Source: Globisporangium splendens (taxonomy: Eukaryota; Oomycota; Peronosporomycetes; Pythiales; Pythiaceae). Taken from it: a stretch of 64,000 nt of DNA. Numbering within the stretch: position 1 is the first letter of the stretch; each line of letters starts with the position of its first letter. The position numbers and the translations under genes are program-made. This document shows positions 22,143 through 58,117 of this stretch, piece after piece. A model generated the notes under the pieces. The model searched no databases and was not told where the DNA came from. It saw only the letters and a program-made list of their open reading frames with translations. The stretch is taken from NCBI GenBank assembly GCA_006386115.1, contig VFIW01000029.1, forward strand, positions 124,001 through 188,000, given 5' to 3'.

Positions 22143-22369
22143 GGGTTGAGGAGGATGGAAGAGCAGACGAGGCAGGCTTCTCACTTGATTCTTTCCCGGA
22201 TCCAGGGCGACGAGTGGCGTTGGCTGGGTTGGCAGCTACGGTCGAAGCTGGATTCTTGGGAGAGACCATTGCGAAAGAAACTTGAGGGTAGGAAGGCGGC
22301 GGCGTGGAGGCGGCGGTTGGCTTGGTATTTCTCAAGTCGACTTGCGGGGTGGCCGGCAAATTGAGAAGT

Positions 22370-22442
22370 GGGGATGTAGCTCAAATGGTAGAGCGCTCGC
22401 TTAGCATGCGAGAGGTACTGGGATCGATACCCAGCTTCTCCA
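22370..22442 (+). tRNA. tRNA-Ala (AGC) at the 5' end of LINE-C
   Basis: A complete consensus tRNA. Its first 14 nt are the right-hand target duplication of LINE-C, so insertion restored a full tRNA on this side, but its natural upstream spacer is replaced by LINE-C. Internal boxes A and B are intact, so it may still be transcribed. Confidence 0.92.
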
Positions 22443-22562
22443 AAATGGTTCTGTTACTGTGATATGATCGTCATCAACAGCACTTTCCCAAATGTGCACT
22501 TCGCAGTCTCACCTGTGAATTCGTTGACATTGAGTAACAATCTTTTTGTGCGAATGTGCAGT
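22443..22562. repeat. Remnant of array spacer
   Basis: Matches the sequence downstream of the other tRNA-Ala genes (GGTTCTGTTACTGTGATATG onwards). After CAATCTTTTTG there is a deletion to a later spacer segment (TGCGAATGTGCAGTG), and then the Gypsy-1 integrase begins. This is the broken right end of the array. Confidence 0.85.
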
Positions 22563-23179
22563 GTGCCGCTGTTGACATGGACAACTTGGTGTCCAGAAGT
22601 CCAAACAGTGCACGCCAGAACTTGGACGTGAAACGGGTGTCACGGTCAGACACGATCTCGACTGGTAGTCCATGTAGACGGAATACGACGTCTACAAAGA
22701 CCTTGGCAGTCTTCTCAGCAGAGATCTTGTCCGAAACAGGCGCAAGATGAACCATCTTGTTGAATCGGTCCACAAACACAAGGATGCCATTGCGTCCGTG
22801 TGTGTCTCTTGGAAGTTCGAATATGAAATCCATACACACAGACATCCAACTGTCCGATGGGACAGCCAATGAACGAAGTGGTGCCTGCGTGGAACCAGAG
22901 GGTTTCACTCGTTGGCAGATCTCGCAAGTCCTCACATACTTGCGAACCCACTTGTACATGTGTGGCCAGTAGTAATCCCGGGAAAGACTGAGAAACGTCT
23001 TCTCACGTCCGAGATGGCCACCCGAAGGACTGTCATGGTACTCATACAAGAGTCGATGACGCAGACCTTCGTCGTTGGGAACAACAACCCTTGCTGTATC
23101 CCCTTGTTCGACCACATAGTACAACAACCCATTGTGTACTCGGAAGCGGTGAACTCGCGATCTTGTGCGCGACGGAAGA
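22563..23179 (-). pseudogene. Gypsy-1 integrase, truncated
   Basis: The integrase zinc-binding region (HDSPSGGHLGREK, CEICQRVK) is followed by the rve catalytic core with the first two acidic residues (MDFIFELP; SDRDTRF). It stops after SMSTA, before the third catalytic residue, where array sequence begins. The segment joins in frame with the RT-RNase H part if the solo LTR and its duplicated flank are removed. Confidence 0.85.
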
Positions 23180-23714
23180 TGTAACCGGACACTTCCGAGT
23201 TACGCAGCACGGTACGTGTGTGAGGAAGCGTATTCAACGCTTCTCTCAAGGACTCTGTTCCGAGAGAGGTGGCCTGCTTCCTGCAGTGCAACAATCGGTT
23301 ACCTATAGGTCTCTATAGAGTAACCGTCGATAACCAAAGGCTCTAGTTAACGGTAAAAATGGAACTGTTTATTTGTTGGAGGTTGCCCTCTGTAGGACAA
23401 CCTGGATTATCTTTATGTAACTATGAACAATAGCAATCTCAAGTGTAATTACTCCCCATGTGGCAATGAGTGGCTATGAAAGACTAACGCTAGTTGTCTT
23501 ATGTGATTGGATGAAATGCATGTTCAATTATGTCCAATCGGAGGCGCCGTCACTCAGACTGGCTGCCGGCTCCACCGTGAAGGTTCGAGCAAGTACGACG
23601 AACCTCATGGTTCGGTCTTAAACTTGTTGCGCGTACTCTACGTACCGCAAGGTTCGATTTGGTTGTGTGGCACAACACAAGTGCGTAACCATGTTACAGT
23701 GTAACCCCGTTACA
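23180..23714. repeat. Solo LTR (Gypsy-2 family) inside Gypsy-1 pol
   Basis: 535 bp, starting TGTAACCGGA and ending CCCCGTTACA, more than 95% like the two LTRs of Gypsy-2 (50,129-50,662 and 58,118-58,652). No internal region is present. It is flanked not by 5 bp but by about 50 bp of duplicated Gypsy-1 sequence (23130-23179 and 23715-23764) with two transitions between the copies. Confidence 0.88.
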
Positions 23715-27883: not shown

Positions 27884-29248
27884 CTATGAATCTGATATAT
27901 AAAACCTTGGGTACACTGAGGTTGAACCTACGGGATCTTCTAGAAGCTTGAACTTCAAGTCTTGTATAAAATCCCTCCAAAGTGATTGGCTCGCGCCACT
28001 CACTTCAGGCGGCAGAGACACGTCGGTCTCGTCGCCAGCCCAGTTTCCCAAGCAGGAACCATCACTCAGTACTTGATTAGTACATGAGAACAACATTCTG
28101 CACTGATCAGCACAGAGAACACTCGTGACGTCATCGAATGACGTCACACGTGCATGTGGGGACTGTATTACCGTAATCCCTTTGTTATTTGTATCTCCAC
28201 AATGCACGCTGAAGGTGGTGTGTGGCACACTAGATCTGGGAACAGATCCACCTTCATGTAATGGCTGGCTGTGGCCCGTTGCATCTAGACAAAGCTCATC
28301 ATCGAAGGATTCATTGTCGAGTTGATCTGCAGAATAGTCATCTCCACAAAACACGACGTTGTCAGCAACATCATATCTCTGTTGCTCCCGCTCAACTTGG
28401 TTACGGACGCTCAATGTTTCAGCTTCAATGTGACCACGATGATCTCTGGTAGAGTCATGCATATCTGTACCCAGGCCCGCTTCGTCAACGTCTCCAGGGA
28501 CAGAGTCAATATCCGCTTTCTGCTGTCCTGTCTCATTAACACCCGTGGTGTCTTCCTCCGTAGTGTCTGCCTCGCCTTCAGGCTCGACGGCAACGGACAC
28601 ATCGTCGAGGGTCGTTGCTTCTTTTTCCCCATTCGCGCTGTGAGCACTCGGACCACGAACCCGCGCTTCCTCTGAACCGTTTTTACCAGACTCTACGATG
28701 TTTCTACGATAAGATCTTGACATGCGATCCATTTGACACACTGTTGCCGGGACCACTTCTATGTTTTCACACTCCAAGTCCACACTAACGTAGCTCGCGT
28801 CGTCGCCGCCTTCACTCTCAAGTTAACTGTCACATTCATCCACACTCGTTGATTTATCACCTCGCTCAGCTGCACTAGTCGATTCTATGACATCTTCGCC
28901 CCTCTCGACTGTGTTAGCTGATTGAATCCACAGCTCGCGCGTTTCATCTGATGGCAGCTTGTAGCGATCTTTGTACATGATGTGCTCATCAACCCGCACG
29001 TCAGGAACAAACTTGCGCGTCCGATTCTCTGGGAAATATACCTTGCATCTAACCTAAGTGTCGCTGAAGCCAAGTACGTATCCAATAAAGCTGCAATCGC
29101 TAAGTTTTGTCGACCGTTCACTCTTCGGGATGTGTGCGAATGCGGTTGCTCCGAATGCACAAGTGTGGTGCATGTTTGGCTTCTTCCCATAGAAGCGCTG
29201 CCAAGGGGTCGTTTTAATGCTCCTTGCGAACATTACCACGCTTGCCAT
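27884..29248 (-). pseudogene. Copia integrase C-terminus and linker, broken
   Basis: The minus-strand continuation of the Copia at 29,220-31,560, in other frames. From 29,210 it shows the post-catalytic integrase region (PWQRFYGKKPNMHH, FGATAFAHIPKSERS, IGYVLGFSD), then an acidic linker with VIESTSAAERGD, an in-frame TAA near 28,820, and about 290 open codons of hydrophilic Asp/Glu/Ser-rich sequence to 27,884. About 50 residues of the integrase, including the expected third catalytic residue, are missing between EWYGKRG and this part. The RT that should follow is absent; the Gypsy-1 LTR begins there instead. Confidence 0.7.
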
Positions 29249-31560
29249 ACCACTCTGCGATATGAGATATCGTGAACTCTGAACCGCGGTCAGTCACAAT
29301 CGCTTTCACTCTGTGTGGGTTCGCCTGCCGCTCAGCCCATTGAATGTACTCTATCATGCGGTCGTTGGTTTCAGCTTTCGTCCGCAGGAGGTACAGGGTG
29401 AGGGACTTTGAATAGCCGTCCATGATAACAAACATCTGACTGAAGTGAGAGCGTCCAAATCGTCCAGGACTGAGTAAGTCCGCATACACTACTTCGTTTG
29501 GATATTTGATATCACGAACGATTACATTCTGAGGCGACTTGCGGTGTTGCTTTGCGAGTTGGCACGTGTGGCAGTTATTCTGTTCTAGCTTCGTGATCGT
29601 CATTCCACTAACCATGCCATTGTCGGCCATTTCTGACAAGTACTGATTGCACGTGTGGGCCAAACGGAAGTGCCAGGTTTGCAAGTCGGCTGCACCATCT
29701 GCTCGAGTGTAGTTCACGAAGTGTTCCTTATGTCCATCCTTCTTGGTACTTGAGAGGAAACTGTTAAACGCGCGGAATGGCCAACTCTGAAAATCTTCGT
29801 CGAACTTCGCCTCGATAATCACAGATTCACCCTTGTAGATCTTCTTCATTCTTGTAGTTCGATCGTAGTCGTACTCAAACCCTTGTTGAAGACCAAGACC
29901 TGGTGAGAACAAATTTGTTGCATTTGGAAGATAAAGCACATTATCCACCGTGAATACAGGAAACATATTCTCGTTCTGCTCGCAGTGTGTCGCGAGTGCA
30001 ATTGTGCCGATCCCAACTGGCTTCGCAGTCGTACTGTTCACAAATTCGATCTTCCCTGATGCATCCCCTTCTGCATCAAAGGCTCTATAATGCACGAAGT
30101 ACTGTTTGTTTCCAGCGACGTGCACATTACTCCCTGGATCAACGATCCACAGATCATCTTCGGCACAGCAGGAACTCGATATCTCGGGCGCACAATCTGC
30201 CGCTTCCTCAAACCCCGCCATCTTCGCGGCGTCAGGATGTGGTTCAAGCATTTTCGAAACTAAACTTGACACCACTGGGCTTGCTGCAGGAGGCTTGCAT
30301 TCGCCCTCATCGTGTTTGTGCTTCGTGCTACGCGTCACGCAATTCGCGGAGGCGATCTCCTTCTTTGTTGGCAACGAGCAATTCTTCGCTACGTGACCAG
30401 GTTGATCACAATTACAGCAATTTCCTTTTGCCTTCTGTGTCCTCGAATGTGCTCCTTTTTCTACATTCGTTGACACCTTGCCCTTTTTATGCTGATGTGT
30501 ACCACCATGCTGACTGACCTGATGCATCTGTTTTGCCTCAGCTTCCTTTGTCTGCATTTCTGCTTCAGCAAGTAGTATCATGTCGCGGACATACTCTGGC
30601 GAACTCTTCTTGTCGCCGTACTTAACGGTTTGCTTCATCGCGTTGTACTCGGACATGTTAGGTACGGAGTCCAGCAGCATGTACTCGAAGTCGTAGTCGG
30701 CAATTCCACGTTGCAGTACTTCAAGTCTCTCCTTGAGCTGAAACATGGCCGCCAAGTGCGCTACCATATCACCATGCTTCCCTTTGCTCGATCTCAACTG
30801 GTTTGAGATCCGCCGCGCTTCCAACGCCACTCTCTTGGTGTCCGCCGCGCCCTCATAATGCGTCACGAGGTCCTCCCACACTTCCGAGCCATTTGTGTGG
30901 TTGAAGTAGCGGCTTGCCAGCGCTTCAGAAAGAGATCCCAGGATCAGGCGATACACTTTCGCTTGGCACTGCACAAACCTGCGTTTTCGATCCACATCCC
31001 AGCTGGCGTCTTCATTTAGCTGCCCGGTTGCTACGTCGTGAATCTCCTGCTCGCCGAACAGCGCTAACATTGTAATGGGGCTTCCCGTTACATGGATTTT
31101 TGGGTACAAAGAGTGTGGGTCATACCCACACGGGTTCCACCACTCTCTACAAACCCACCCGTTAACCCATGAACACTGTATGGAGCCAGTTGCATTTTTA
31201 GTCAATAAGAACTTTCTATTAAAGTTTAATCTCATTGGATGATAGTCGGATTGGACACCTGACTATACCAATCAAAGACGCCGTAGGAACAACCCATCAG
31301 ATTTGCATTTCAAACCTTAAGATTTCAATTCACTTCTCTTTTTGCACATTATCGCGCAAAGCTCCCTTCCTTCTTTTGGACACAGCGTTACCGCTGTGTC
31401 CTTCCTCTCACCTGCGCTTCCTCAACGCACGTGTACGCCGTGTAACGGGCATTCCCGTTACAAATATCATCGCCTTGTAATACGGCCAGTTCTCGCCATT
31501 CCAATTTAAGGGCGTCCCCTTGCTGGATAGCTCAAACTTCCTGCACGGCGATGTCATCAT
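29220..31560 (-). pseudogene. Copia gag, protease and integrase (left arm)
   Basis: The gag start is the ATG at 31560. An insertion (31071-31462) splits gag between NWPYYKAM and LALFGEQ. The rest is open: Gag helical region, CCHC knuckle (CCNCDQPGHVAKNC), protease with WIVDPGSNVH as the active-site segment, integrase zinc region (WHFRLAHT, CHTCQLAK) and catalytic core with the first two acidic residues (VYADLLSP; VTDRGSEF). It is then broken by a deletion with frame change at about 29,220. The ATG in front of the inserted element would give a false fusion start. Confidence 0.82.
31071..31462. repeat. Solo-LTR-like insertion in Copia gag (left arm)
   Basis: 392 bp, both ends TG...CA. Each end is itself a near-palindrome built on TGTAACGGG/CCCGTTACA. 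The flanks AACAT and AATAT look like a 5-bp target duplication with one change. Removing it restores the gag reading frame. The terminal TGTAACGGG resembles the Gypsy-2 LTR end, so a related LTR family is likely. The right arm has the same insertion at 62,253-62,911, there enlarged by a SINE. Confidence 0.65.
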
Positions 31561-31615
31561 TTCTCGGATCAATCTCTTGTTGCAATCAACAGCGGCTTTG
31601 GGCTCATAACCCTTT

Positions 31616-31867
31616 TGAGAATTGAAAAACAGATTGAGTAGAGAAAATGCACCTTGTTGTAGGATTATTGGAGATTGAGCAGCCAGAGGGACGGCTCAGT
31701 GCTTGATACATATGTATTGCTCTTCTGCTTTCTAACTGCCGCATCTGAGCTCTTGCGACAGACCTTCGTCTCTGAGGGTACCAGCGTGATATCGGTACAA
31801 CCGGTATCTGGCATATACTGTGGTAGTATCATGTGAGGATTTGGACCTGGTCCAAATACAAATAACA
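31616..31867. repeat. Copia 5' LTR (left arm)
   Basis: 252 bp; in Copia sense it begins TGTTATTTGT with a palindromic TTTGGACCAGGTCCAAAT and ends TTCAATTCTCA. A GGTTATGAGC segment follows a few bases later, resembling the usual Copia primer-binding site from initiator tRNA-Met. The mirror copy lies at 61,848-62,099. No 3' LTR of this element is in the window. Confidence 0.65.
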
Positions 31868-33002
31868 AGTCTAGATCGGACCTGGCCGACCCAGCAGAAA
31901 TACGAAATTGGAGGTCTCGCTACTGAGTTTTTTCATGGATTTGACAGTAAGGTTTTATGAGGAAGGAGAATTTTCATGAGCAGCTGATCGACGCTTCCAG
32001 CAAAACAAAACACTTCAAATTGATGCTTTCTTTGGCCGGGCTTTCAACTCGATTTACTGCGCCTATGTCGAAAGTGACCGTAGCCATACTGTCAGACATG
32101 CGTTTCCATAGTCAATGTGAAGGCAACGATTTATACTCTGATGATGGCCGCAACTGTGTTCGCAATGATGGCAGTAATGGCAGTTCTGTGCCCACACCAT
32201 CACAAGCAGCTACACCGCCGCCACGTAGAGCAACAGCACCATCACAAGCCTCGTAACAAGCAGCATCACCGCCATCATGATTGCCTCAGGCGCCACGAAA
32301 AACAACAGCGCCGCAACCACCACCGCTGCGAGTAGAACCACCACCAACACGAGCAGCGCCGCAGCCCTGCAGCCACCAAAAGCAGAACTAGCGGTATCGA
32401 CATTATATTTAGAATTCGAAGCTTTCCGGTTCGAGGCATCCCCACCGCCGCAATGCGCAAAAAGTTTCGGTATCACGCCAAGGGCGGCGGATATAATGTC
32501 CTTTGGTCGCGGAAGCGCAAGGACCAGATGTGTCGTGGAAATGTCAGATATTTCATGAATATCTGTCGCGCTGGCGCGATGATTGCTGTGATGCCTTTGC
32601 AATGCTTACAGTTACCGGAGGCGAACGACGCACTTAGTGTGTTGCGTGAGAAAGGTAAATGAGGAATTGCAGAGTCGGATGGAGACAAAAGAGTAATTGG
32701 GTATGCTGAAGGGCTTCATGCAAAATGCTCGTATAGATAACCTTCAATTCACCGAAGTTCTGACCAGAAAGCAATCACATGCCACACGTCAGCAAAATGA
32801 AAGATTCTGGGATGTTTAAAAAATTGCGCGCACTCTTAAGAAGCCTACCGACTTGCAATACGTCTCGTTGAAACTTGTCGCTTTCTTAACACATATAGGC
32901 GATGTTGGGCACTATGACAACATTCGCATGCATACATCAGATAGCTGCGGATCTGAACATACACTTCACCAATTTAGGATAGAACTTACACTGCAGGGCT
33001 AG
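31868..33002. other. Unassigned region with conflicting small ORFs (left arm)
   Basis: No recognised gene. A minus-strand frame (32602-32210, 130 codons) ends in a very long hydrophobic Ala/Val/Leu stretch that could be one or two membrane spans. On the plus strand 32117-32335 starts with a plausible signal peptide (MKATIYTLMMAATVFAMM) followed by a His-rich tail. They overlap antisense and at most one is real. Both are conserved in the right arm, which proves nothing because the arms are near-identical. 32,700-33,002 shows nothing. Confidence 0.3.
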
Positions 33003-33395
33003 CTACACCAATCTCTTTACCATCTTCGAAAATGTGTTCAATGACTTTCCACTCAGAACTCTTTTGCTCTCAATTATTTCGGCTGCTTCTTCATACGACA
33101 TATTATTTTTCGAGGCACAAAGCTTGGTAGCATCGTAGTAAACTTTCCGCCGCGAAAAAAACCTGTTCTCGGTCGAGTCAGCACACCACTTCGGCCCAAA
33201 TCGTTTTACTGCTTCTCGGACTGAAATTTGACCACCTAGCCCAATCGCGTACTCGCACCAAACCTCGGGAACAGTGCGCAACGATCTACTTAATCGCAGT
33301 TGTCCCTTTATCGCGACAGAGTACTTGTCAATGCGCTGCGGAGGTGCCGGTGGTTGTTCTTGCGGTTTCTGTTTGTCTCCGTCAACTATGGTCAA
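33003..33395 (-). pseudogene. GCR1_C-like DNA-binding part of a Crypton (left arm)
   Basis: A 130-codon frame. Residues about 28-95 match the pattern of the GCR1_C/CBF3-type DNA-binding domain found at the C-terminus of Crypton recombinases: an LSRSLRTVPEVWCEYAIG start, then SVREAVKRFGPKWC and FFSRRKVYYDAT. The N-terminus is Pro/Gln-rich. It overlaps the end of the preceding frame by 4 bp in another phase, so it was probably the last part of a single recombinase protein (or a separate exon). It is the same strand and order as in Cryptons. Confidence 0.65.
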
Positions 33396-33911
33396 AACGA
33401 GCTTTTGCTGACCGGTAGCGGTGCCTGTTTTTTCAAGTTGCTGACCTCGGACGCGAGGCTGTCCAGCTTTCCATGTACGGACTCAAATCCTGCTTTTAGA
33501 GCAGTAGCTACGAGAGGAATAGCGGACTCGAGGGTTTTGGCGTGTAGTGCTTCTGCTGAGGGGACTTTGGCTATCACTTCATCTTCGAAAGCGCGATACT
33601 CTGATGACAAAAAGAGTGGATCTTGCCAAATAGGATGATCTCTAAACTGGCGGCGGAGAAGCACGGAGTCTTGTAAAAAAAAATACCCGCAGGTCGTGGA
33701 GCATGCCGACAAAACCTCCTGCTGCAATTTCCTTGGTTTCTCTTTTTTCAAAATCAGCCTCTGCTTTCTCGAGATCACGATACACTATGGCACGACCAGT
33801 GCTATAAGAGGCAAATTTATCGATGATGCTATTCATGCAGATCTTTCGACCTGTTATCCAAAAGCGCTCCCTGTTCTCAGTGGCAGTGCTTGCCCGGAGC
33901 ACCAAGTGCAT
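33392..33911 (-). pseudogene. Middle part of a Crypton recombinase, frameshifted (left arm)
   Basis: Two overlapping frames (33911-33642 and 33778-33392) together read as the helical region that usually follows the tyrosine-recombinase domain of Cryptons: GGFVGMLHDLR in one frame and LQDSVLLRRQF with PIWQDPLF in the next. The change of frame falls in a run of nine T (about 33,670-33,680, minus strand), a typical slippage lesion. A heptad-like end (LDSLASEVSNLKK) leads to the GCR1_C-like part. Confidence 0.55.
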
Positions 33912-34091
33912 GGGCCATCAGCGGCACTATACTGAACCTTTGTGCCTGGCTGCAACATGCATTTACGCATACACGCCCCAAGTATAAAAGCACGATGACT
34001 CATTACCTGAAATGAGCCATTTCCCAAATGACTCACTTGCTGATCAAGTGTGTGAGTGTCGTTCCTGGAGTGACGGTCTTCAACCTCCACT

Positions 34092-35315
34092 TCAACTGCT
34101 CCGTCTGCTCAAACTCGGCAACAAAATCTCCACACACACCATCCTTTGCAGCTCGTCACATGGTGTGACACAACCTCGGGTCAGCCAATATGAGCCACCT
34201 TTGGTAGGAAAACCGGCGAGTGAACGCATCGCTTTTCGGGGTATTGTAGTCAAATAACAACCTTCCATACGACCACTATTCCACCGACCAGCTCGCCTAA
34301 TTTGAGCTTCATCGGCGCCATTTGACTCCGCTATTTTGGCTGCTGATACGCGATTGGAGTGCATCCATACAGACGAGTCAATCCCACACGACTCAAATGC
34401 ACGCTTTATTCCGTCGAGCTGAGCGTTGTACGAGAGCTGGACTTTGGAATCTTTGCCTTTCAATAGATGGATGTCGTGCCAAGCTTTCCGGTTTGTCAGA
34501 ACCGGGAAGGGCTCCAAATCCACGTGCCACCTCCAAAAGAGGTACATTGCGACGGCGTTCACGGGGCAAAGTAGGACTTTTTTGCATCGCATTGCAACAC
34601 CGTACTCTACTCTCCCGTGTTGGTTGGTTTTTCCTTTCGTCGTGATTACGACTAGTGGGGTACAGTGCTGTGGGCTTTCGTCACTCAACGACAGAGTCAG
34701 CAAATCAGGAAACTGGATGTACCTTCTTGACTCTCCTCGGGCAAGAAGAGCGTGTCCGAGAAGAAAATCAACGCGATCTCTTAGTGCTACACCAGATTGT
34801 TGACTTAACCAAAACGAGCTCAATGCCTTCATGTCTTCAACGTTGTACCCATCGAGCACTGTTCCTACACCGCGATCGGCGTACGCCTCACGCTTCCGCG
34901 TCACTTCACTGCGTTTCAATAGATCCACGAGAGCACGGAGTGCCATTCCACGAGGATGCGATTCTTCGTTCATGCCGAGAGACTTCTGCTGCTGGTACAG
35001 GTCAACAATGGCCTTCACATACGCGTCAATGGACTCGAACCCTAGCGCTTGCGGAGTTCCGTCGGCCTGCTTAAACCGCTTGTTTCCTCGCGGGACGACA
35101 AAATTGTCCAGAAAGTCAACGAGCTTCGCTTCATACACCAGCTCGCCATCACAAAAGCCCTTGGACGCGCACCACTCACGGTACTCCTTTTGCTTGTTCA
35201 TGTACTGCTTTTGTGTGTTTGCAGACCGCTCAGTGGCCTGGCGAGCGAGGACGTTCACCACAGCATGATGTAGCGATTGCGCGTTGGCCACGTTTACCGA
35301 GACGACGTCTGCCAT
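34092..35315 (-). pseudogene. Crypton-type tyrosine recombinase (left arm)
   Basis: A 407-codon frame starting at ATG 35315. It catalyses strand exchange through a 3'-phosphotyrosine. Catalytic set visible: Arg197/198 (RGESRRYIQF), His319 and Arg322 (WMHSNRVSA), Trp345 (AGRWNSGRM) and Tyr354 (GCYLT). The N-terminal 100 residues form the core-binding region (NTQKQYMNKQKEYREW). The segment after Tyr354 (AMRSLAGF, GSYWLTRG) is typical of Crypton/GCR1 proteins. Near 34,128 the frame is lost by a single-base difference; beyond it the other frame continues with related residues to a GTGAGT splice-donor-like site. The start and catalytic residues are intact, the C-terminus is not. Confidence 0.78.
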
Positions 35316-35527
35316 CGGTTCCCCTCTGCTTGATCTTTTGTGTTAATCCGTGCTTTCGAGGTGCTGGTGGGAGAGGAAGGGGTGAGTGGGTGGATGTTTG
35401 TGGAGGAGGCAAAGGAAAAACCTAGTCGTGAAACGCGCCGATAAATTTTCACATTTTATCAATTTAAGACGGATATTTAATTATGGAGGATGATATGGCT
35501 GCGAGATACATCCGTATTTCGCTCATG

Positions 35528-35902
35528 TCACAGTGCATCTATCAAGTATTTCATGTCCGAGTCCTCGGACCCGGTCCGGATTTGTTGGTAGATACTGACC
35601 TGTATCTCAACAGGGTCTTGTACTGCATCGCTTGTTGGCAACGTTGCCGGTTCGTGACTAGTGGTCACATACAGCGGGTAATGGTGCGCCGTCCTGGTGG
35701 GCGTTGCGGTTGTGCTTCGTGGCGGAGTGACCACGATAGCGGGTGCGTAGTCGTGCTCATATTGGTCGTGCATTCCATTCCTCACCACCCTAGGGCCTCC
35801 AAGAAGGGGGATTCTCTCCCTGGGATGGGCCGGCCCAAACTGGACCGCTGAGGCTGGAACTGGACCGCTTGTGCTTGACTTGGAAAGTTGGAGAATAGTC
35901 AC
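35528..35902 (-). CDS. Hypothetical protein (left arm)
   Basis: A 124-codon frame between the coiled-coil gene and the recombinase, same strand. Thr/Ser/Pro-rich, with HDQYEHDYAPAIVV and TPPRSTTATPTRTAHH. No domain recognised. It differs from the right-arm copy by one residue (M/I near the end). Both ends carry GGACCNGGTCC-like palindromes resembling the Copia LTR tip, so it might instead be a remnant of repeat DNA. Confidence 0.3.
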   Translation of the reverse strand: MTILQLSKSSTSGPVPASAVQFGPAHPRERIPLLGGPRVVRNGMHDQYEHDYAPAIVVTPPRSTTATPTRTAHHYPLYVTTSHEPATLPTSDAVQDPVEIQVSIYQQIRTGSEDSDMKYLIDAL

Positions 35903-36061
35903 AAAAATATAGTTATATGATAATTAAGGAGAGAGGCTCTAAGTTCAGGAGGTTGCTCGGTTTTGAGTAAAACGTATCCATGATCACGAGTAATCACAGC
36001 CGCTCACCCGACAAACATGTTGGATACTCGAGCCAAAAAAAGAGCGTGTCGGAGCGGCAGA

Positions 36062-36680
36062 CTACTTGAAGCGCGCGTTCATCACCACCTCCATCTTCGA
36101 GCGATTCGTGCGACCGTACTCGGCGCAGCAGCCCTTGATGTGCTGCTTCCGGCAGGACCTGCAGATGTTGAGGCTCTGGAAGAGTATGCGCGGGTCGGCA
36201 CTGATCGCGCTCTGCATGTCGATGCCCTCCTTGGGCGCGCACCCACTCCTTGAAGGCCCTGGTGACGTCCCGCTTGGGCAGCTCCGCGCCCGCCGCGAAC
36301 TCCACGCGCTCGATGAAGAAGCGATACGAGAGGTCCTTACTCTCGTCCTCGCTCTCTACCTTCGGCTCATCTTTACACTCTTGCTGTGGCTCCTTTCTAG
36401 ACACTTCCTTCGGCTCCGCGAAAGTTCTGTCCGCCAGCGCGAGCATCAGCTCGTCCATCTTCCTGTTCAGTAGCTCCGACAGATCCGCCACCTTCGCTTC
36501 CAGGCGCTCATGATGCTGGCGATCCACGTCCAACCTCTGTTGGAGCAGGCTCACGCGCGTCAGCAGCAGCTTCACCGCCTCATCCTTCAGTAGTCTGATG
36601 TCGAGCGGCGCCGCCACCGGCTCCTCCGCAGCTTCTTCCACTGGGGTGGGCGGGCGAGATCGCCGGTTTCTATAAATCAT
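36062..36680 (-). pseudogene. Coiled-coil protein with C-terminal Cys motif, frameshifted (left arm)
   Basis: The ATG at 36680 lies 25 bp after the capsid-gene stop, same strand, suggesting a cassette. Residues about 27-80 are a heptad-rich helix (LLTRVSLLQQRLDV, RLEAKVADLSELL). An acidic Lys/Glu linker follows, then a compact C-terminal domain (FIERVEF, RDVTRAFKEWV) that continues, in another frame, with CRSCRKQHIKGCC and NRSKMEVVM to a TAG at 36062. The frame is lost in a GC-dinucleotide run near 36,235; the right arm has two bases fewer there and is also out of frame. I do not recognise the family; a DNA-binding or packaging role would be a guess. Confidence 0.5.
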
Positions 36681-36705
36681 GACTGTATGTTATGTAAGAA
36701 AGTTC

Positions 36706-38750
36706 TCAGTCGTATTCGTGGACCTCTCCCGTTAATCGATCCACGCTGAGGGACCGACCATAGCAGATCAGAACCAGATAGTTTGTGCCCTGGCTGCAGT
36801 TGTTCACGCTGCTGACCAAGATGGACTGGGGAATTTCTGGGTTCGTCACGCGAGAGCAATCCGCCAGCAGGATGCGCTGCACATTCGACCACTTGTTGAA
36901 GTCTAGGAGGCCGTTCGAGATTTTTTTTAATTTTATTGAGGTATATTTAGGTTCATCGTCGTGACCTACAATATCCATATTGAGAGGTCGGAATTACAGG
37001 GCTGGGTCTTATTGCCCCCCATGGGGTCCTACCTCGACCCCTGATTGGGCCCGATGAACTTCGATTTTCCGCACGTTGAAAATCCCGCTCTGAATGGGAC
37101 TCGAACCCGCAATCAACAGCGTAGAGGTCAGAAGCTTACCCCACTAGAACCGCGCCACCGGTTAGGCCGTTCGAGATTTCGTGCGTCAAGCCGCCATTCA
37201 CAGAGGCGATCTTGCTGAGCTCGTCGAAAAACGACTCATAATTGTAGTCAATCGTCTTGTTGAAGATGCTCTCGTTGCCAATCTGGACCTGGAAGTTGCG
37301 CACACTAGAGCCTGGCTGGCACGTCAACGGAGCTGAATCGAACGGCGAGGCGAACTGCTGGGCGAGATTGGCGGACGAGTTTGCGCAATGGCCGCTCGAC
37401 GTTTCCGCAAATGGCATGAGCGCCACGTACTTGATGCTCTTGAGCGAGGCGCTCAGTTGGAAACTGAAGGCAACGTTCTGCTGCGAGGTGCTAACGCCTG
37501 TGCCGGCTTTTTGCTGGAAATATTGGGCGTAGCAATCCAAGTAATTCAACTTCTTAATCGGGTTTTTGAACTATCTGGGTTGGATTTGCGATATCGTAGA
37601 ATGGGATGTATAAACGGCTTGTCGTAAACGGGAATACCTGGCCGCTGGTAGCCAGAGTCGTTAAAGAGTTCTGGAGCAGGCCGAACGCAACGCGAAGTGC
37701 TCCAGCAGTCGCGTGGGGCACATCATTCATTGGGTTGCCGGCAGCAGCAGATGCGATCATGATAGGAACCGTGGTTCCTGACGTCAGGGTGGTACCCGCG
37801 AGCGACATCACGTTCGAAGCCCCAGTCGTTACGTCGACGTAGCCTTGATTGACGCCGAGCTTGATCTTGATTTGTGGGTTCGCGACCAGATCGAGTTCCT
37901 TGAAAATCGGATGCAGGTCAACCAGCCGGATGTTTAGCATGTGATACCAAGTGACCGCAATACCACCAGCTGCAGAAGCCGTGTTAACGAAACCCCCCTT
38001 GCTATTCTGCTGGATCATGCTGGGGATTCCTCCCGATCGGGTAGTCGTCCAACCATACGGGTTCGCTGCTGCGAGCGTGCTCCCATCCGTTGAAGTGGCA
38101 ATCTGATCTGGATTATTGTACAGCCGGCTGATGAACCCAGTGTTGTAAGGAGGAGCCGTGCCCGTAGATTCAGGAACCAAACCCGTAGCTGCTGTCGACG
38201 TCACATTTGTTGTGTTGTTCAGATAGCCATCGCCCCAGGCACTAGCCGCAGCGCTGCCACTAGATTGAGCGAATAAAACGCTGGCAGAATCGTCCGGAGC
38301 TAAAAACGCACCCGCTCCTCGCTTGACCACATCAATCGAACTCCACTCCGTCATCGCGCGCAGATTGTTCCAATACAGCTTGTAGTCGTTGTCCGTGATA
38401 ATGCCCTTGCCGTTGAGTTCGACGCTGAGCGAATCAATGACATTCCAAACGCCACAATTCAGACCGACAGCATATTTGGAGACCGTACCTGCCAATGCAT
38501 TTGTGCCATGCGTGTTTTTCATCGTAACAACGTAGGGCAGCGCGATATACGCGTCGCGGAGACTTCCGAAACCGGTGGAGCCATTCAGCTGGCTGGTAGC
38601 ATCGATAGTGATAACGCCAGCCTGGTAGGAGCCGTTGGAGTTGCCGACGCAGTGCACTACGCGCTTGTCCTTTGAGACAGACACGACGGGCTCAGGAGAG
38701 ACCGAGCAGTCGCTCTGGAACTGATTGACGAGTTGCGTCGAGGCAGCCAT
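36706..38750 (-). pseudogene. Double jelly-roll-type major capsid protein, virophage/Polinton-like (left arm)
   Basis: About 600 codons from ATG 38750, in three blocks. Block 1 (38750-37554) has the N-terminal pattern of virophage/Polinton-like capsids: SLRDAYIALPYVV, CGVWNVIDSLSVELNGK and YKLYWNNLRAMTEW. Block 2 (37553-37180) is in a shifted frame (QQNVAFSFQLSASLKSIKYV). Block 3 (36923-36706) has the characteristic end: ILLADCSRV, then LVLICYGRSLSVDRLTGEV, like the last strands of the second jelly roll. Lesions: a frame change with TAA at 37554, and a SINE (36924-37163) with a 16-bp TSD between blocks 2 and 3. It is rich in Ser/Thr/Asn/Gly as capsids often are. The assignment is by motif pattern, not by search. 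Confidence 0.62.
36924..37163 (-). mobile_element. tRNA-derived SINE in the capsid gene (left arm)
   Basis: 240 bp in capsid sense. Head with box A-like TGGCGCGGTTCTAGTGGGG and box B GGTTCGAGTCC, a body with GGACCCCATGGGGGGCAA, and an A-rich tail (AATAAAATTAAAAAAA). Flanked by AGGCCGTTCGAGATTT at 36908-36923 and 37164-37179 (16-bp TSD). Present in both arms, so it predates the duplication. Confidence 0.88.
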
Positions 38751-38841
38751 TATTGTACTGCTATAGTTTTGCAGCAGCGACGAGGTCGGTGGGGGAGGGC
38801 CCTTCTGTGTCGTCACGGCGGATTTTGTAGATCATGACGAC

Positions 38842-39111
38842 TTGTACCCGTATCGCCCCCAAGGGCGTGTGCGCCAAGACGTGACTGCAGTCGTAGCCAT
38901 GCGGTATTGCAATAGGAAGTGCTTCAACCTCGTCACAAGCCAGGAAGAGGTCGAGAACGTCGTCGTCATGACCCGGTCGTGCTTCCTCAAGCTACACAAG
39001 ACGGACACTGCCGTGTCAAAGCCAGTCGAGCACGATATGCATCAGCGGATAGGCGAGTGGGGCGACGTCATGCTCAATTCGGTCGTTGAGTACGTCTACT
39101 CGCAAAGATAA
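38842..39111 (+). CDS. Possible small gene divergent from the capsid gene
   Basis: An 89-codon frame on the plus strand, opening 91 bp from the capsid ATG. It has Cys and Lys-rich residues (CNRKCFNLV, TRSCFLKLHK) and an acidic end. The frame has no ATG at its very start; an ATG in another frame lies at 38,835. It could be a fragment of a second gene of the virus-like element reading outward, or chance. No family recognised. It lies outside the duplicated arm, so there is no second copy. Confidence 0.25.
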   Translation: MYPYRPQGRVRQDVTAVVAMRYCNRKCFNLVTSQEEVENVVVMTRSCFLKLHKTDTAVSKPVEHDMHQRIGEWGDVMLNSVVEYVYSQR

Positions 39112-39551
39112 GCACCGACCGATCTTGCAGCGCTTCACACGCAGCGGGTAGTGCCAACAACGGTCGGCTCATTGAGGCAGTTGGCCTAGTTTCACGCATC
39201 GTGGTCCACTCGGCGTCATTTCGATGCCCGGAGACGGCGTGGCTATAAGGAACAGTCCGCACGACAAGTATAATATATGCTGTTTGATGGCGTTGATGGA
39301 TCATCATGATTCATTAGGCGTCTCCACTCAGACCCTCGGTGCTTAGAGCACGGTAGTTTTGTACAATGTGTTGTCTGCCACTCGATCAAGAATTAAAAGA
39401 CTGTGATATGACCAGTCGAACGATGTTGTCTGTAATCGTAGCTTGATGTCGACAGTGACTATCAAATGCAACGCCAATATGGATTCATATCACTCTGTGC
39501 GCCTTTACCAGACTACTGCGTTCGGCTAGCCGGAAGTAACCACCCAGACGC
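39112..39551. other. Intergenic, nothing recognised
   Basis: AT-richer than its neighbours. I see no open frame, repeat or tRNA. It is the 3' flank of the hydrolase gene. Confidence 0.6.
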
Positions 39552-46606: not shown

Positions 46607-48482
46607 GCTCCACCGGTTTCGGAAGTCTCCGTGACGCGTATATCGCGCTGCCCTACGTTGTTACGATGAAAAACACGCATGGCACAAATGCATTGGCAGG
46701 TACGGTCTCCAAGTATGCTGTCGGTCTGAAGTGTGGCGTTTGGAATGTCATTGATTCGCTCAGCGTCGAACTCAACGGCAAGGGCATTATCACGGACAAC
46801 GACTACAAGCTGTATTGGAACAATCTGCGCGCGATGACGGAGTGGAGTTCGATTGATGTGGTCAAGCGAGGAGCGGATGCGTTTTTAGCTCTGGACGATT
46901 CTGCCAGCGTTTTATTCGCTCAATCTAGTGGCAGCGCTGCGGCTAGTGCCTGGGGCGATGGCTATCTGAACAACACAACAAATGTGACGTCGACAGCAGC
47001 TACGGGTTTGGTTCCTGAATCTACGGGCACGGCTCCTCCTTACAACACTGGGTTCATCAGCCGGCTGTACAATAATCCAGATCAGATTGCCACTTCAACG
47101 GATGGGAGCACGCTCGCAGCAGCGAACCCGTATGGTTGGACGACTACCCGATCGGGAGGAATCCCCAGCATGATCCAGCAGAATAGCAAGGGGGGTTTCG
47201 TTAACACGGCTTCTGCAGCTGGTGGTATTGCGGTCACTTGGTATCACATGCTAAACATCCGGCTGGTTGACCTGCATCCGATTTTCAAGGAACTCGATCT
47301 GGTCGCGAACCCACAAATCAAGATCAAGCTCGGCGTCAATCAAGGCTACGTCGACGTAACGACTGGGGCTTCGAACGTGATGTCGCTCGCGGGTACCACC
47401 CTGACGTCAGGAACCACGGTTCCTATCATGATCGCATCTGCTGCTGCCGGCAACCCAATGAATGATGTGCCCCACGCGACTGCTGGAGCACTTCGCGTTG
47501 CGTTCGGCCTGCTCCAGAACTCTTTAACGACTCTGGCTACCAGCGGCCAGGTATTCCCGTTTACGACAAGCCGTTTATACATCCCATTCTACGATATCGC
47601 AAATCCAACCCAGATAGTTCAAAAACCCGATTAAGAAGTTGAATTACTTGGATTGCTACGCCCAATATTTCCAGCAAAAAGCCGGCACAGGCGTTAGCAC
47701 CTCGCAGCAGAACGTTGCCTTCAGTTTCCAACTGAGCGCCTCGCTCAAGAGCATCAAGTACGTGGCGCTCATGCCATTTGCGGAAACGTCGAGCGGCCAT
47801 TGCGCAAACTCGTCCGCCAATCTCGCCCAGCAGTTCGCCTCGCCGTTCGATTCAGCTCCGTTGACGTGCCAGCCAGGCTCTAGTGTGCGCAACTTCCAGG
47901 TCCAGATTGGCAACGAGAGCATCTTCAACAAGACGATTGACTACAATTATGAGTCGTTTTTCGACGAGCTCAGCAAGATCGCCTCTGTGAATGGCGGCTT
48001 GACGCACGAAATCTCGAACGGCCTAACCGGTGGCGCGGTTCTAGTGGGGTAAGCTTCTGACCTCTACGCTGTTGATTGCGGGTTCGAGTCCCATTCAGAG
48101 CGGGATTTTCAACGTGCGGAAAATCGAAGTTCATCGGGCCCAATCAGGGGTCGAGGTAGGACCCCATGGGGGGCAATAAGACCCAGCCCTGTAATTCCGA
48201 CCTCTCAATATGGATATTGTAGGTCACGACGATGAACCTAAATATACCTCAATAAAATTAAAAAAAATCTCGAACGGCCTCCTAGACTTCAACAAGTGGT
48301 CGAATGTGCAGCGCATCCTGCTGGCGGATTGCTCTCGCGTGACGAACCCAGAAATTCCCCAGTCCATCTTGGTCAGCAGCGTGAACAACTGCAGCCAGGG
48401 CACAAACTATCTGGTTCTGATCTGCTATGGTCGGTCCCTCAGCGTGGATCGATTAACGGGAGAGGTCCACGAATACGACTGA
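46607..48482 (+). pseudogene. Virophage/Polinton-like capsid protein, 5'-truncated (right arm)
   Basis: The mirror copy of the capsid gene, lacking about the first 55 codons, which were lost at the duplication edge; the upstream frame is by chance open into Copia DNA. It has the same frame change and TAA at 47,632-47,634 and the same SINE. I noticed three residue differences from the left copy (for example K for N in GLKCGVW, D for G in RGADAF, L for P in LALDD). The identical lesions show that the gene was already damaged before duplication. Confidence 0.62.
48025..48264 (+). mobile_element. tRNA-derived SINE in the capsid gene (right arm)
   Basis: Mirror copy of the SINE at 36,924-37,163, with the TSD at 48009-48024 and 48265-48280. 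Its internal ATG (near 48,210) makes an open frame run by chance into the last capsid block. Confidence 0.88.
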
Positions 48483-48507
48483 GAACTTTCTTACATAACA
48501 TACAGTC

Positions 48508-49124
48508 ATGATTTATAGAAACCGGCGATCTCGCCCGCCCACCCCAGTGGAAGAAGCTGCGGAGGAGCCGGTGGCGGCGCCGCTCGACATCAGACTACTG
48601 AAGGATGAGGCGGTGAAGCTGCTGCTGACGCGCGTGAGCCTGCTCCAACAGAGGTTGGACGTGGATCGCCAGCATCATGAGCGCCTGGAAGCGAAGGTGG
48701 CGGATCTGTCGGAGCTACTGAACAGGAAGATGGACGAGCTGATGCTCGCGCTGGCGGACAGAACTTTCGCGGAGCCGAAGGAAGTGTCTAGAAAGGAGCC
48801 ACAGCAAGAGTGTAAAGATGAGCCGAAGGTAGAGAGCGAGGACGAGAGTAAGGACCTCTCGTATCGCTTCTTCACCGAGCGCGTGGAGTTCGCGGCGGGC
48901 GCGGAGCTGCCCAAGCGGGACGTCACCAGGGCCTTCAAGGAGTGGGTGCGCCCAAGGAGGGCATCGACATGCAGAGCGCGATCAGTGCCGACCCGCGCAT
49001 ACTCTTCCAGAGCCTCAACATCTGCAGGTCCTGCCGGAAGCAGCACATCAAGGGCTGCTGCGCCGAGTACGGTCGCACGAATCGCTCGAAGATGGAGGTG
49101 GTGATGAACGCGCGCTTCAAGTAG
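48508..49124 (+). pseudogene. Coiled-coil protein with Cys motif, frameshifted (right arm)
   Basis: Mirror copy of 36,062-36,680, 25 bp after the capsid stop. At 48,950 it lacks a GC dinucleotide that the left copy has; neither copy reads through. One further residue differs (T for I in FFTERVEF). The end of the protein (CRSCRKQHIKGCC) is in the third frame, to TAG 49122-49124. Confidence 0.5.
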
Positions 49125-49283
49125 TCTGCCGCTCCGACACGCTCTTTTTTTGGCTCGAGTATCCAACATGTTTGTCGGGTGAGCGGCTGTGATTACTCGT
49201 GATCATGGATACGTTTTACTCAAAACCGAGCAACCTCCTGAACTTAGAGCCTCTCTCCTTAATTATCATATAACTATATTTTT

Positions 49284-49658
49284 GTGACTATTCTCCAACT
49301 TTCCAAGTCAAGCACAAGCGGTCCAGTTCCAGCCTCAGCGGTCCAGTTTGGGCCGGCCCATCCCAGGGAGAGAATCCCCCTTCTTGGAGGCCCTAGGGTG
49401 GTGAGGAATGGAATGCACGACCAATATGAGCACGACTACGCACCCGCTATCGTGGTCACTCCGCCACGAAGCACAACCGCAACGCCCACCAGGACGGCGC
49501 ACCATTACCCGCTGTATGTGACCACTAGTCACGAACCGGCAACGTTGCCAACAAGCGACGCAGTACAAGACCCTGTTGAGATACAGGTCAGTATCTACCA
49601 ACAAATCCGGACCGGGTCCGAGGACTCGGACATTAAATACTTGATAGATGCACTGTGA
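49284..49658 (+). CDS. Hypothetical protein (right arm)
   Basis: Mirror copy of 35,528-35,902; 124 codons, Thr/Pro-rich, no recognised domain, with one residue difference near the C-terminus. Same caveat about possible repeat origin. Confidence 0.3.
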   Translation: MTILQLSKSSTSGPVPASAVQFGPAHPRERIPLLGGPRVVRNGMHDQYEHDYAPAIVVTPPRSTTATPTRTAHHYPLYVTTSHEPATLPTSDAVQDPVEIQVSIYQQIRTGSEDSDIKYLIDAL

Positions 49659-50128
49659 CATGAGCGAAATACGGATGTATCTCGCAGCCATATCATCCTC
49701 CATAATTAAATATCCGTCTTAAATTGATAAAATGTGAAAATTTATCGGCGCGTTTCACGACTAGGTTTTTCCTTTGCCTCCTCCACAAACATCCACCCAC
49801 TCACCCCTTCCTCTCCCACCAGCACCTCGAAAGCACGGATTAACACAAAAGATCAAGCAGAGGGGAACCGATGGCAGACGTCGTCTCGGTAAACGTGGCC
49901 AACGCGCAATCGCTACATCATGCTGTGGTGAACGTCCTCGCTCGCCAGGCCACTGAGCGGTCTGCAAACACACAAAAGCAGTACATGAACAAGCAAAAGG
50001 AGTACCGTGAGTGGTGCGCGTCCAAGGGCTTTTGTGATGGCGAGCTGGTGTATGAAGCGAAGCTCGTTGACTTTCTGGACAATTTTGTCGTCCCGCGAGG
50101 AAACAAGCGGTTTAAGCAGGCCGACGGA

Positions 50129-50662
50129 TGTAACCGGACACTTCCGAGTTACGCAGCACGATACGTGTGTGAGGAAGCGTATTCAACGCTTCTCTCAAGG
50201 ACTCTGTTCCGAGAGCGGTTGCCTGCTTCCTGCAGTGCAACAATCGGTTACCTATAGGTCTCTATAGAGTAACCGTCGATAACCAAAGACTCAGTTAACG
50301 GTAAAAATGGAACTGTTTATTTGTTGGAGGTTGCCCTCTGTAGAGCAACCTGAGTTATCTTTATGTAACTATGAACAATAGCAATCTCAAGTGTAATTAC
50401 TCCCCATGGGGCAATGAATGGCTATGAAAGACTAACGCTAGTTGTCTTATGTGATTGGATGAAATGCATGTTCAATTATATCCAATCGGAGGCGCCGTCA
50501 CTCAGACTGGCTGCCGGCTCCACCGTGAAGGTTCGAGCAAGTACGACGAACCTCATTGTTCGGTCTTAAACTTGTTGCGCGTACTCTACGTACCGCAAGG
50601 TTCGGTTTGGTTGTGTGGCACAACACAAGTGCGTAACCATGTTACAGTGTAACCCCGTTACA
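50129..50662. repeat. Gypsy-2 3' LTR
   Basis: 534 bp, TG...CA, in Gypsy-2 sense starting TGTAACGGGG and ending CCGGTTACA. It carries most of the differences between the two LTRs (for example AGAGC/GAGTT where the other LTR and the solo LTR have GGACA/GGATT). Confidence 0.93.
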
Positions 50663-50675
50663 CCACCCCCCACTT
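50663..50675 (-). promoter_or_regulatory. Gypsy-2 polypurine tract
   Basis: On the minus strand AAGTGGGGGGTGG lies directly before the 3' LTR, the expected primer for plus-strand DNA synthesis. Confidence 0.75.
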
Positions 50676-50833
50676 AAAGTGCGAAACACTCGAAGGGTCG
50701 GTGTGAGAAACGTGTGGTGGTCACGCTACGACTCACGAGGTCGTGGTCAGAATTTATCGTGAGAGGCACAGCGAACACGCGTGCAAAGCTCTCCGAGAAT
50801 CGTCGTAAAATCACAAGTGTGGACGCACACGTG

Positions 50834-52369
50834 ATGGCGACAAACAAATCGGTGCGCGAGAAGATCGCCCGATGCGCGAGCGGCCCTGCAGAAGGACTCG
50901 TTCAAAGATTGCAAAAGCTCGACGCTGAAAAGCGCGAGACGGCGAGCGCAAAACAACGCGCTGCCGCTGCGACCACGACTGCCACAGTAGACGTGAGCAT
51001 GAGCGACGTCGAGTCGACTCAACCGAAGGCTGCTCCTGACTGTGTCAGTGAGCTACAATTTGGCGACCTCCCTGCCATCATGCCGATGAGCAGGACAAGC
51101 GACGCCGAAGACGACACGGCAGTCGACTACCAAGAGTACTCGCCCGAAGAAGGGGAGGAAGGGGAAGACATCACAGTGAAGCTCGGCTCCATCGGCGAGT
51201 GGGTCGAGTACGAGGAGTTGCATTACGGGAGCGGTAGCCCCGAACTGCACGAGTTGGAACGGAATCCCTCGGCAGACGTCTCGATTTATCGGACGGATGA
51301 AGAAAATGACGTCGCAAAGACTGTCAAAGAAAGAGGGAAGGAGGAGGTCATCATTACCAATAATGAGACCGGACTGGAACCACCGCGAAAAGGTTCCGTC
51401 CATTATTCGCTTCCCATTATGCCGCCGCCAAGTTAATGGCCGACAGCAAAAACCCCGGCAAATTTACTTGCACAGGCGCGGGTTCCACTCGAGAGGTATG
51501 ACTCCGAGTTCGCACGATGGCGCGAAGCCGATCTGCGAGGACGTGATGGGGCACTGCGCGTGCACCCGATCCCGGTTATCCTTTACGAAGATGAGACCGA
51601 GGATCAATATGAAACCGCGTTCTTGGCATCAAGAACCGGTGTGAAACGCTTTGGCACTGCGCGTATATTGGCCACCGATCCTGGGGCACAACGTAGCCAG
51701 CGCATGCAATTCGCTGTGCAGCGCGTACAAAAGTACCGCGAAGCGATCAAGACTGTTGACCGTGCTCGTTCGAGTCACGTCGTTAACAAGCGGCAGATGG
51801 ACGAGTCCCACTCGCCACCAACGCACGCTCAAAAGCGGCGACCAAATCGGGAACGTCCTCGAGGAGGCGCTCAGCAGGCTCCCACGAGCTCTGCGACACA
51901 TCGTACCCACGCCACTTCACAAGGTAGTGGGTGTTCCCCTTACGCCGCTGCACACGCAGCAGGCGCTCAACATGGTAGTGGCGCTGTCCCTGCTTGTCAA
52001 TCAGCGGGATAGGTGGCGCCCTACTTCGCTTCAGCATCGGTGGTTGCACCAGATGCGGTGGTTCAGATGGTTCACGCGAACGCATCGTCTTTTGGGGCGC
52101 TACAGCAAGCCGTCCGTACCCTTCGCCAGCAATATCTGGACGAAACCTCGCTGTTGAAGCAGAGGGTGACGGCGCTTGAGACGGAGCTGAAGGAAGCTCG
52201 TCAGATGCTGGAGGAGTACCATGTCCGCGGGAAGCACTTCCACGCGAGGTATGCTCCGCGAGTGAAGACGCTTTGGGAGAGGCACAACGCGCTCGTGTCT
52301 CGATGGGCGGCGTCTGAGCCCCCTGATGAGACCGACGTGCTCCCGCACTGGGATAAGAATCCACAGTAG
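50834..52369 (+). other. Antisense reading frame at the 3' end of Gypsy-2
   Basis: One plus-strand frame is open from 50714 (first ATG 50834) to 52369 except for TAA at 51434-51436 and TAG near 52,010. The first part (about 200 codons) is acidic and hydrophilic (KSVREKIARCAS, EYSPEEGEEGEDI); the middle has LERYDSEFARWREADL and YEDETEDQYETAFLAS; the end is a strong heptad coiled coil (LLKQRVTALETELKEARQMLEE). 50,714-51,782 has no sense-strand gene. Beyond 51,783 it overlaps pol in antisense. The stops may be lesions or lie in introns. No family recognised. Confidence 0.45.
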
Positions 52370-54711: not shown

Positions 54712-56207
54712 AAGCCACTTGCGCAAGTCCTTGACATTCTTTGGGATCGGCCAGTCGGCGATCGCCTTGATCTTCTCTGGGTCCGCGCGGACGCCAGCTT
54801 TGCCAACATAGCAGCCCAGGATCGGAATCTCTGAGGCGCCAAAGATGCATTTCTTCAGGTTGCAATACAGACTGTTGTCTCGTAAGCACTGCAACACTGA
54901 GCGCAAATGTCTCTTGTGCACGTCAACGGCACTGAGATCTCCTTCGGCACGACTGTGCACGAAGATGTCATCGAAATAGCTCGGTGCATACGCACGATGA
55001 GGACGCAGAAGATGCGTTACCAGACGATTGAACGTCGCTGGTGCATTCTTCAAACCTTGCGGCATAACGAGCCACTCCCACAGCATCCCGCTGGGTGTGC
55101 TTACTGCCGTCAAGGGAACGTCACTCTCTCGCATGAGGATCTGATAGAACCCATCCATCAGATCCAGTGCGGAGAACACTGTCGAGCCGCCCATGGAGTC
55201 GATCAAGACATCCTTCCTTGGGATCGGCGTTTGTGCCGGAATGGTGGCGGCGTTCAGCTTGTTGAAAGCGTGAACAATGCGCCAGCCACCAGTCGCTTTC
55301 CGCACACAAAACGTGGGTGAGCTATGCGGAGACTTGCTTTCTCTCACATGACCGGCGAGGGCTCGTTTCGCGAAGAACTCGTCGATAGCCTCAACCTGCT
55401 CGCGGGGCAGCGGCCATTGTCTGGTCACGCAATATTTGCTCCCGGGCTCGAGGTCAATCTCGTGCCGTACGCCACGATCAACGGGCAGGGCACTTGGCAC
55501 TTTGTCGGGAAACACATCTTTGAACTCCCACAATAAGTCAAAGTATGGACTGCCTTTCACGGCGTCCCAATCCTGAGCAGCAAAACGTTTCTGTTTGTCT
55601 GGCTCCAAAACACTCTCATCCGCAGTGGACGAGGTGCATAGTTCGCTACGCGTGAACGCAGTCGGAACGACGATCTCGCGGATCTGATCACGCTCTAGAT
55701 CCGTAAGAAAGAGCTCATAGCTCATTTCTTCGAGGGATACAATCGCCTCAACGGTACTCGGCAGCTCATGGAGCGCCGCAAATTCAGCGAAGAACACTTC
55801 GTCTGATGCGTTTGCTTCCGGACTGCGCTTCGCGCGTCTGAGCGCCACGTCAACGTGAGCGCGATCTATCGACGGATCCGAGGTCCTGTCGAGGGCGCGC
55901 AGCGAAGTTGCAGCTGCATTGAGAGATGGGGCAATCATATGCGAGGCGGCCGTTTCCTCAGCAACAGATGCCAATGCACTGTCTCTCTCGCAAGCTGACA
56001 ACTTGCGTCGCCCTCGTCGGTTGATGCGAACACGCGACCTCGCGGTTCTGAGCTCCAGTACTGCACCGTCAGGGTGGTACGAGCTGGTTGACGCGTGTAC
56101 ACCTGTACTGTCGCTGTCACTTGCGGGGCTGGCTCGGGTGCTCTGGAGCCGCACACTTGCGCACCAGTGTCCACGTCTGGACTTTCTGGCGCTTCCGCAC
56201 AAACTGG
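54712..56207 (-). pseudogene. Gypsy-2 reverse transcriptase part
   Basis: RT frame: HAFNKLNAATIP, DLMDGFYQI, PQGLKNAPATF, catalytic YFDD (SYFDDIFVHS), ILGCYVGKAG. It opens just after a TAG at about 56,208 and overlaps the protease frame to 55,935, in the -1 phase. An ATG at 55,939 overlaps the protease stop as ATGA and begins MIAPSLNAAATS, so stop-restart translation is possible; I see no phased slippery heptamer in the overlap. At about 54,712 the frame is lost within LRKWLG. Confidence 0.85.
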
Positions 56208-58045: not shown

Positions 58046-58100
58046 GATGAATCCTTGAGGAAGCGATTCAGGCAGTCACCTCTGCCGGGTCGTAGATTGA

Positions 58101-58115: not shown

Positions 58116-58117
58116 GT

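Follow-up and report, generated by a model that had tools for sequence, protein, structure and literature searches.

Genes and features of the locus

The window analysed here is a stretch of 64,000 nucleotides from the oomycete Globisporangium splendens (contig C121, positions 124001-188000). It carries a broken gene resembling a viral major capsid protein (MCP) gene beside a tyrosine recombinase of the Crypton type. The original prediction offered two readings of this arrangement, a single capsid-encoding Crypton or a nest of separate elements. As it had described, the minus strand carries, in this order, the capsid motifs, an open reading frame (ORF) starting 25 bp downstream, then the recombinase and finally the GCR1_C-like domain. 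The analysis leaves us in little doubt that the locus is a stack of unrelated mobile-element relics, namely a probable capsid remnant of a Polinton-like virus (PLV), a copia-like retrotransposon and a Crypton. The genome scanned comprises 53,310,241 bases in 195 contigs, and neighbourhoods were compared within this one genome. DNA searches scored the best candidates: 40 of 649 in the dispersed-repeat search, 40 of 96 with the joined flanks described below and 40 of 547 with window positions 35900-39500. The features are as follows (LTR, long terminal repeat; SINE, short interspersed nuclear element).

29214-31235, minus: copia-like gag-pol ORF (Pfam Retrotran_gag_2, gag_pre-integrs, Pol_BBD and rve)
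31610-31814, minus: remainder of the copia LTR beyond the Crypton, inner limit approximate (joined-flank alignments)
31815-35597, minus: CryptonF-type element with terminal CAGTAT repeats, ends set by other genome copies
33003-33395, minus: GCR1_C domain of the Crypton protein (Pfam, 2e-18)
33789-34135, minus: dispersed insert of about 347 bp splitting the Crypton gene, not in three other full-length copies
34092-35315, minus: Crypton tyrosine recombinase domain NDC10_II (Pfam, 1.4e-44)
35598-35612, minus: 15-base start of the copia LTR (TGTTGA...), severed by the Crypton (joined-flank alignments)
35613-35904, minus: dispersed repeat between the probable viral remnant and the copia LTR (repeat search and joined-flank search)
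35994-36680, minus: coiled-coil ORF downstream of the capsid gene, no known relative
36709-38750, minus: broken MCP-like gene in pieces 38750-37506, 37567-37163 and 36933-36709 (tblastn with P0001, P0003 and P0008, and homologues)
36921-37164, minus: SINE-like dispersed repeat in the capsid gene (genome copies; target duplication of 13-16 bp)
46607-50128, plus: inverted duplicate of the MCP remnant and of the 5' part of the Crypton (99.7% identity)
58653-62352, plus: inverted duplicate of the 3' part of the Crypton (99.7% identity)

The Crypton and its target

The NDC10_II and GCR1_C matches are too strong, at the E values given above, for the recombinase to be a chance match. Both domains of the predicted recombinase with a GCR1_C-like end are thus present, but they do not form one ORF here; they fall on separate ORFs because the 347-bp insert divides the Crypton gene. 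No target duplication was found for the insert at 33789-34135. In relatives such as P0122-P0124 the two domains are united in one protein. Over 46 aligned rows, from which P0144 had been dropped beforehand, R193 was conserved in 41/42 of the rows with a letter at that position, H319 in 42/43, R322 in 43/45 and Y354 in 44/44. By our own reading of the alignment these residues would fit the R-H-R-Y tetrad of the recombinase, with R198 (41/42) as an alternative first arginine. A match of the recombinase to a PHROGs terminase (E 0.15) was judged to be chance.

Six further copies of the window subfamily were found, three of them full-length (C35, C113 and C67) and three comprising 5' parts (C45, C184 and C124). 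All six share the 5' end of the window element at the same starting base, and the 3' end matches in all three full-length copies, that on C67 being degenerate in its last bases. CAGTAT stands at both ends of the window, C35 and C113 copies. The flanks of the sister copies are unlike one another, except that those on C184 and C124 are duplicates (98%). A second subfamily, with about 64-65% DNA identity over 1.1 kb, occurs on C138, on C21 and at a second place on C67. It starts with CGGTAT, and the two 3' ends seen read CGGTAT in one case and CGGTTT in the other.

Twelve loci were fetched, comprising the sister Cryptons (L044-L049), the second subfamily (L053-L055) and loci on C175 including L050-L052. 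A tblastn search with three MCP relatives found no MCP in the six sister loci and none in the three loci of the second subfamily; among the twelve, only L050 on C175 holds one. Conversely, none of the 35 recombinase matches in the genome, many of which are fragments, lies on the C175 contig. A capsid-recombinase neighbourhood, which was expected to recur if the two genes belonged together, was therefore not observed again in this genome.

The empty target was sought with the two flanks of the window Crypton joined by a single CAGTAT. The joined flanks align through the junction at C141:187223-187443 and C173:42126-42346 (both 94%) and at C141:192663-192886 (93%), and they also span it at C141:109680-109899 (89%) and C129:736874-737094 (86%), while a sixth match (C6:16668-16872) starts exactly at the junction. 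Alignment of four of the empty copies shows a shared part that opens with TGTTGA and is LTR-like, beginning 15 bp before the Crypton. A further copy of the copia-like gag-pol ORF lies at C141:190946-192861. The Crypton on C35 likewise has an empty counterpart, at C23:10546-10954, with 88% identity over all 406 query bases. LTR copies that lack the Crypton align straight through the junction. The element therefore inserted into a copia LTR, and it neither brought nor shared the capsid gene. Three details weigh against this account: the empty LTRs have one extra base at the junction, the core of the C23 site is CAGTAC and is preceded by differing bases, and the empty sites are paralogous copies rather than the window locus in another strain.

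Taken together, the independent copies of the Crypton, its exact ends and the empty sites lead us to reject the one-element reading at the window locus, where the capsid gene and the Crypton are chance neighbours. The same-genome recombinase copies have clean ends, corresponding to 31.8-35.6 kb of the window, and no capsid gene lies in the loci fetched. This is the outcome that the original prediction had itself named as one that would make its single-element idea fail, here observed within one genome. The nested alternative of the original prediction was essentially right, with the Crypton nested in copia and copia adjoining the viral remnant.

The ORFs between the capsid gene and the Crypton

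The coiled-coil gene that had been predicted is present as an ORF 25 bp downstream of the capsid gene, but it has no homologue at E <= 0.001 (1222 candidates) and its frame is unlike between the two window copies. It is possibly a broken PLV gene. A match to Imm1 fell below the cut-off and was judged to be chance. The small gene proposed at 35528-35902 did not hold up: this ORF is probably no gene because it spans the dispersed repeat, the 15 copia LTR bases and the Crypton terminus.

The capsid-like gene

The homologue search with ORF 37554-38816 (minus strand) scored 8000 candidates and returned 172 homologues at E <= 0.001, so that the homology is not due to chance. Every organism shown among the 120 homologues listed is an oomycete (Lagenidium, Phytophthora, Aphanomyces, Thraustotheca and Plasmopara). 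Many relatives are 570-600 amino acids long. The window gene, first put at roughly 600 codons, is not intact, its pieces being separated by a frame break near 37.55 kb and by a dispersed repeat of about 240 bp that tblastn places between the second and third pieces. The source label of P0002 is major capsid protein and that of P0042 and P0100 is virion structural protein, all of which we take to be automatic names. The mean column identity among 37 chosen family members (alignment A1) is 54%. In a phylogeny built from 122 sequences over 374 columns, the window MCP clusters (support 0.998) with P0011 (P. lilii), P0002 (L. giganteum) and P0001, and the MCP copy on C175 falls outside this group.

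The repeat that interrupts the gene is SINE-like, with one A-rich end and dozens of further copies among the matches listed. The duplicated target measures up to 16 bp, though its first three letters possibly belong to the A-rich end. By its letters the repeat appears to resemble a transfer RNA (tRNA), and no tRNA was called within it by Aragorn. When the DNA at 35900-39500 was searched against the genome, all the listed matches outside the two window arms lay within the SINE-like stretch.

The family is most likely the capsid of the GKS1/Gossevirus group of PLVs. This link rests on the family itself, the neighbourhood on C175 and the literature; the capsid fold and the virus group are both inferred. 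Bellas and Sommaruga (PMC7805220) describe PLVs of the Gossevirus group that are integrated in oomycetes and whose capsid HHpred recognised as a double jelly roll. According to Bellas et al. (PMC10120064), oomycete capsid genes are confined to five clusters of the GKS1/Gossevirus group, with up to 299 GKS1 capsid copies in a single oomycete genome. Against the viral assignment, the MCP family had no match among Pfam or PHROG families, solved structures or IMG/VR contigs. The PHROGs search with the MCP pieces and the IMG/VR scans with the MCP family gave no relative, nor did an IMG/VR scan with the C175 ATPase. Weak candidates were judged to be chance when the MCP profile was run against PDB sequences (11 reached E <= 1, the best at 0.12) and were set aside in the Pfam search with the 37 members of A1, where 12 weak families each matched one member.

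What remains of the probable virus in the window is truncated. No element ends are left to the MCP remnant, nor was an ATPase, protease or replication gene recognised with it, and inverted pairs of at least 18 bp, such as terminal inverted repeats would form, are absent at 28-44 kb. No packaging ATPase or penton was recognised in the window, where divergent ones could escape, and the ATPase and penton candidate of C175 match C175 only. No protease was recognised either, and no protease search was made.

The other capsid locus

Genome-wide, MCP matches occur at three places, the two arms of the window and C175:184595-185149, where tblastn shows the middle of the protein to be missing. About 1.9 kb from the C175 MCP lies an ORF with a Pox_A32 match (5.7e-8), a packaging-type ATPase. 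A small ORF of the same locus shows, by eye, an H-D-C order that may resemble adenovirus-type proteases; its best PDB match, at E 0.45, leaves this unconfirmed. Another ORF is an equally unconfirmed penton candidate, picked out by eye.

The locus L050 (C175:180001-190000) is better preserved and PLV-like, holding the middle-less capsid gene, the ATPase, a 514-amino-acid ORF ending in a coiled coil and a repetitive ORF of fibre-like appearance. Further away, at some 13 kb from the capsid gene on C175, an ORF of 620 amino acids (L052:8088-9950; C175:198088-199950) matches Hom_end_hint of the intein type (6.5e-11) and has cysteine clusters that look RING-like by eye. At L051:5912-6397 (C175:175912-176397), roughly 8 kb from that capsid gene, a TnpB/Fanzor-like zinc-ribbon end was observed (Cas12f1-like_TNB, 1.9e-8).

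Inverted duplication and the rest of the window

A feature that had gone unmentioned is a second, inverted copy of the block within the same window. The segments 31363-35062 and 35058-38581 are repeated inverted at 62352-58653 and 50128-46607, and 29982-31378 is repeated inverted at 64000-62604 (99.6%). The arms are about 8 kb apart, and the duplication is either a recent event or an assembly effect. Its inner break falls within the second capsid copy and truncates it near residue 73 of the query ORF. The overlap of 5 bases between the two segments, together with direct repeats of about 535 bp (50129-50662 and 58118-58652), indicates that an LTR element was inserted in the second copy.

The stretch 50129-58652 is a chromodomain-type LTR retrotransposon whose inner ORF has RNase H, integrase and chromodomain matches, and a related LTR lies at 23177-23714. 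Ty3-like gag and reverse transcriptase ORFs are found at 23.7-27.6 kb. The window has 27 ORFs of at least 260 amino acids, 14 of which were put to Pfam; in the batch of 10, retroelement domains were found in five and nothing at E <= 1e-5 in the other five, the remaining four being run apart. Aragorn calls five tRNA-Ala genes in the window. These tRNA-Ala(AGC) genes belong to tandem repeats of about 0.9 kb, four in 3258-7923 and a fifth at 22369-22443.

Proposed assembly of the stack

We propose that a PLV, whose group was most likely GKS1/Gossevirus, would have integrated at this site, presumably first, leaving the broken capsid gene and perhaps the next ORF. A copia-like LTR retrotransposon lies directly downstream of the viral remnant, behind the dispersed repeat. 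A CryptonF inserted at a CAGTAT site in the copia LTR, presumably by the crossover proposed for Cryptons, in which the recombinase would unite a circular form of the element with a short core of matching sequence. The stack may afterwards have been copied as an inverted repeat, of which the copy would have been struck by another LTR element.

Among the alternatives, the one that survives best, though we consider it unlikely, is that the Crypton or the surrounding copia element landed inside a once longer PLV, with viral DNA on both sides. The truncated viral remnant does directly adjoin the repeat and copia block; the Crypton, however, sits in a copia LTR, and the only recognised ORFs on the far side are those of retroelements (copia and Ty3-like). 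It is considerably less probable that the capsid-like family is an oomycete host family rather than a viral one. Its presence in many oomycete genomes and the lack of matches in IMG/VR, Pfam, PHROGs and PDB would suit a host family, whereas the packaging-type ATPase adjoining the C175 capsid copy, source names such as major capsid protein and the many published GKS1 capsids of oomycetes (PMC10120064, as cited above) argue for a virus. That some other oomycete PLV lineage elsewhere recruited a GCR1_C-type Crypton recombinase as its integrase seems very improbable, and the window gives no support to it. Least credible of all is a single element here, a PLV or Crypton derivative using the GCR1_C recombinase as integrase for its capsid gene: the shared strand, order and closeness of the genes and the published PLVs with tyrosine recombinases, oomycetes included (PMC7805220), speak for it, but the Crypton ends at 31815 and 35597 leave the capsid gene outside, the six sister loci lack MCP, the Crypton went into a copia LTR, and no Crypton was matched on the contig that bears the remaining MCP locus.

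A real composite would have connected a class of transposons with a class of viruses. With the stack of unrelated relics, the attractive but unsupported idea that Cryptons and capsid-encoding viruses are linked in this way is closed. What is documented in G. splendens is the remnant of a probable PLV, a family of CryptonF elements for which exact ends and empty target sites were found, and the nesting with a copia element. Caution over integrases beside PLV genes is warranted by the precedent of cryptophyte PLVs, where nested retrotransposons are given as the explanation of some integrases close to PLV genes (PMC12220804).

Comparison with known systems

The window Crypton resembles the CryptonF elements of oomycetes, for which Kojima and Jurka (PMC3212892) describe a tyrosine recombinase with GCR1_C and 6-bp terminal direct repeats. 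It shares these two domains, the 6-bp terminal direct repeats and the oomycete host, and it has relatives in fungi. It differs in that the window copy is divided by a dispersed insert and in that no C48 peptidase match was found when five Crypton-side ORFs were compared with Pfam. With the GKS1/Gossevirus PLVs the capsid-like gene shares an oomycete host, a family found across many oomycete genomes and, at C175, a packaging-type ATPase gene near the capsid gene, whereas the window keeps just the broken capsid gene and one ORF. The copia-like element agrees with known LTR retrotransposons of this kind in its gag, gag_pre-integrase and integrase domains and in an LTR opening with TG, and differs from them in that its LTR in the window is severed by the Crypton.

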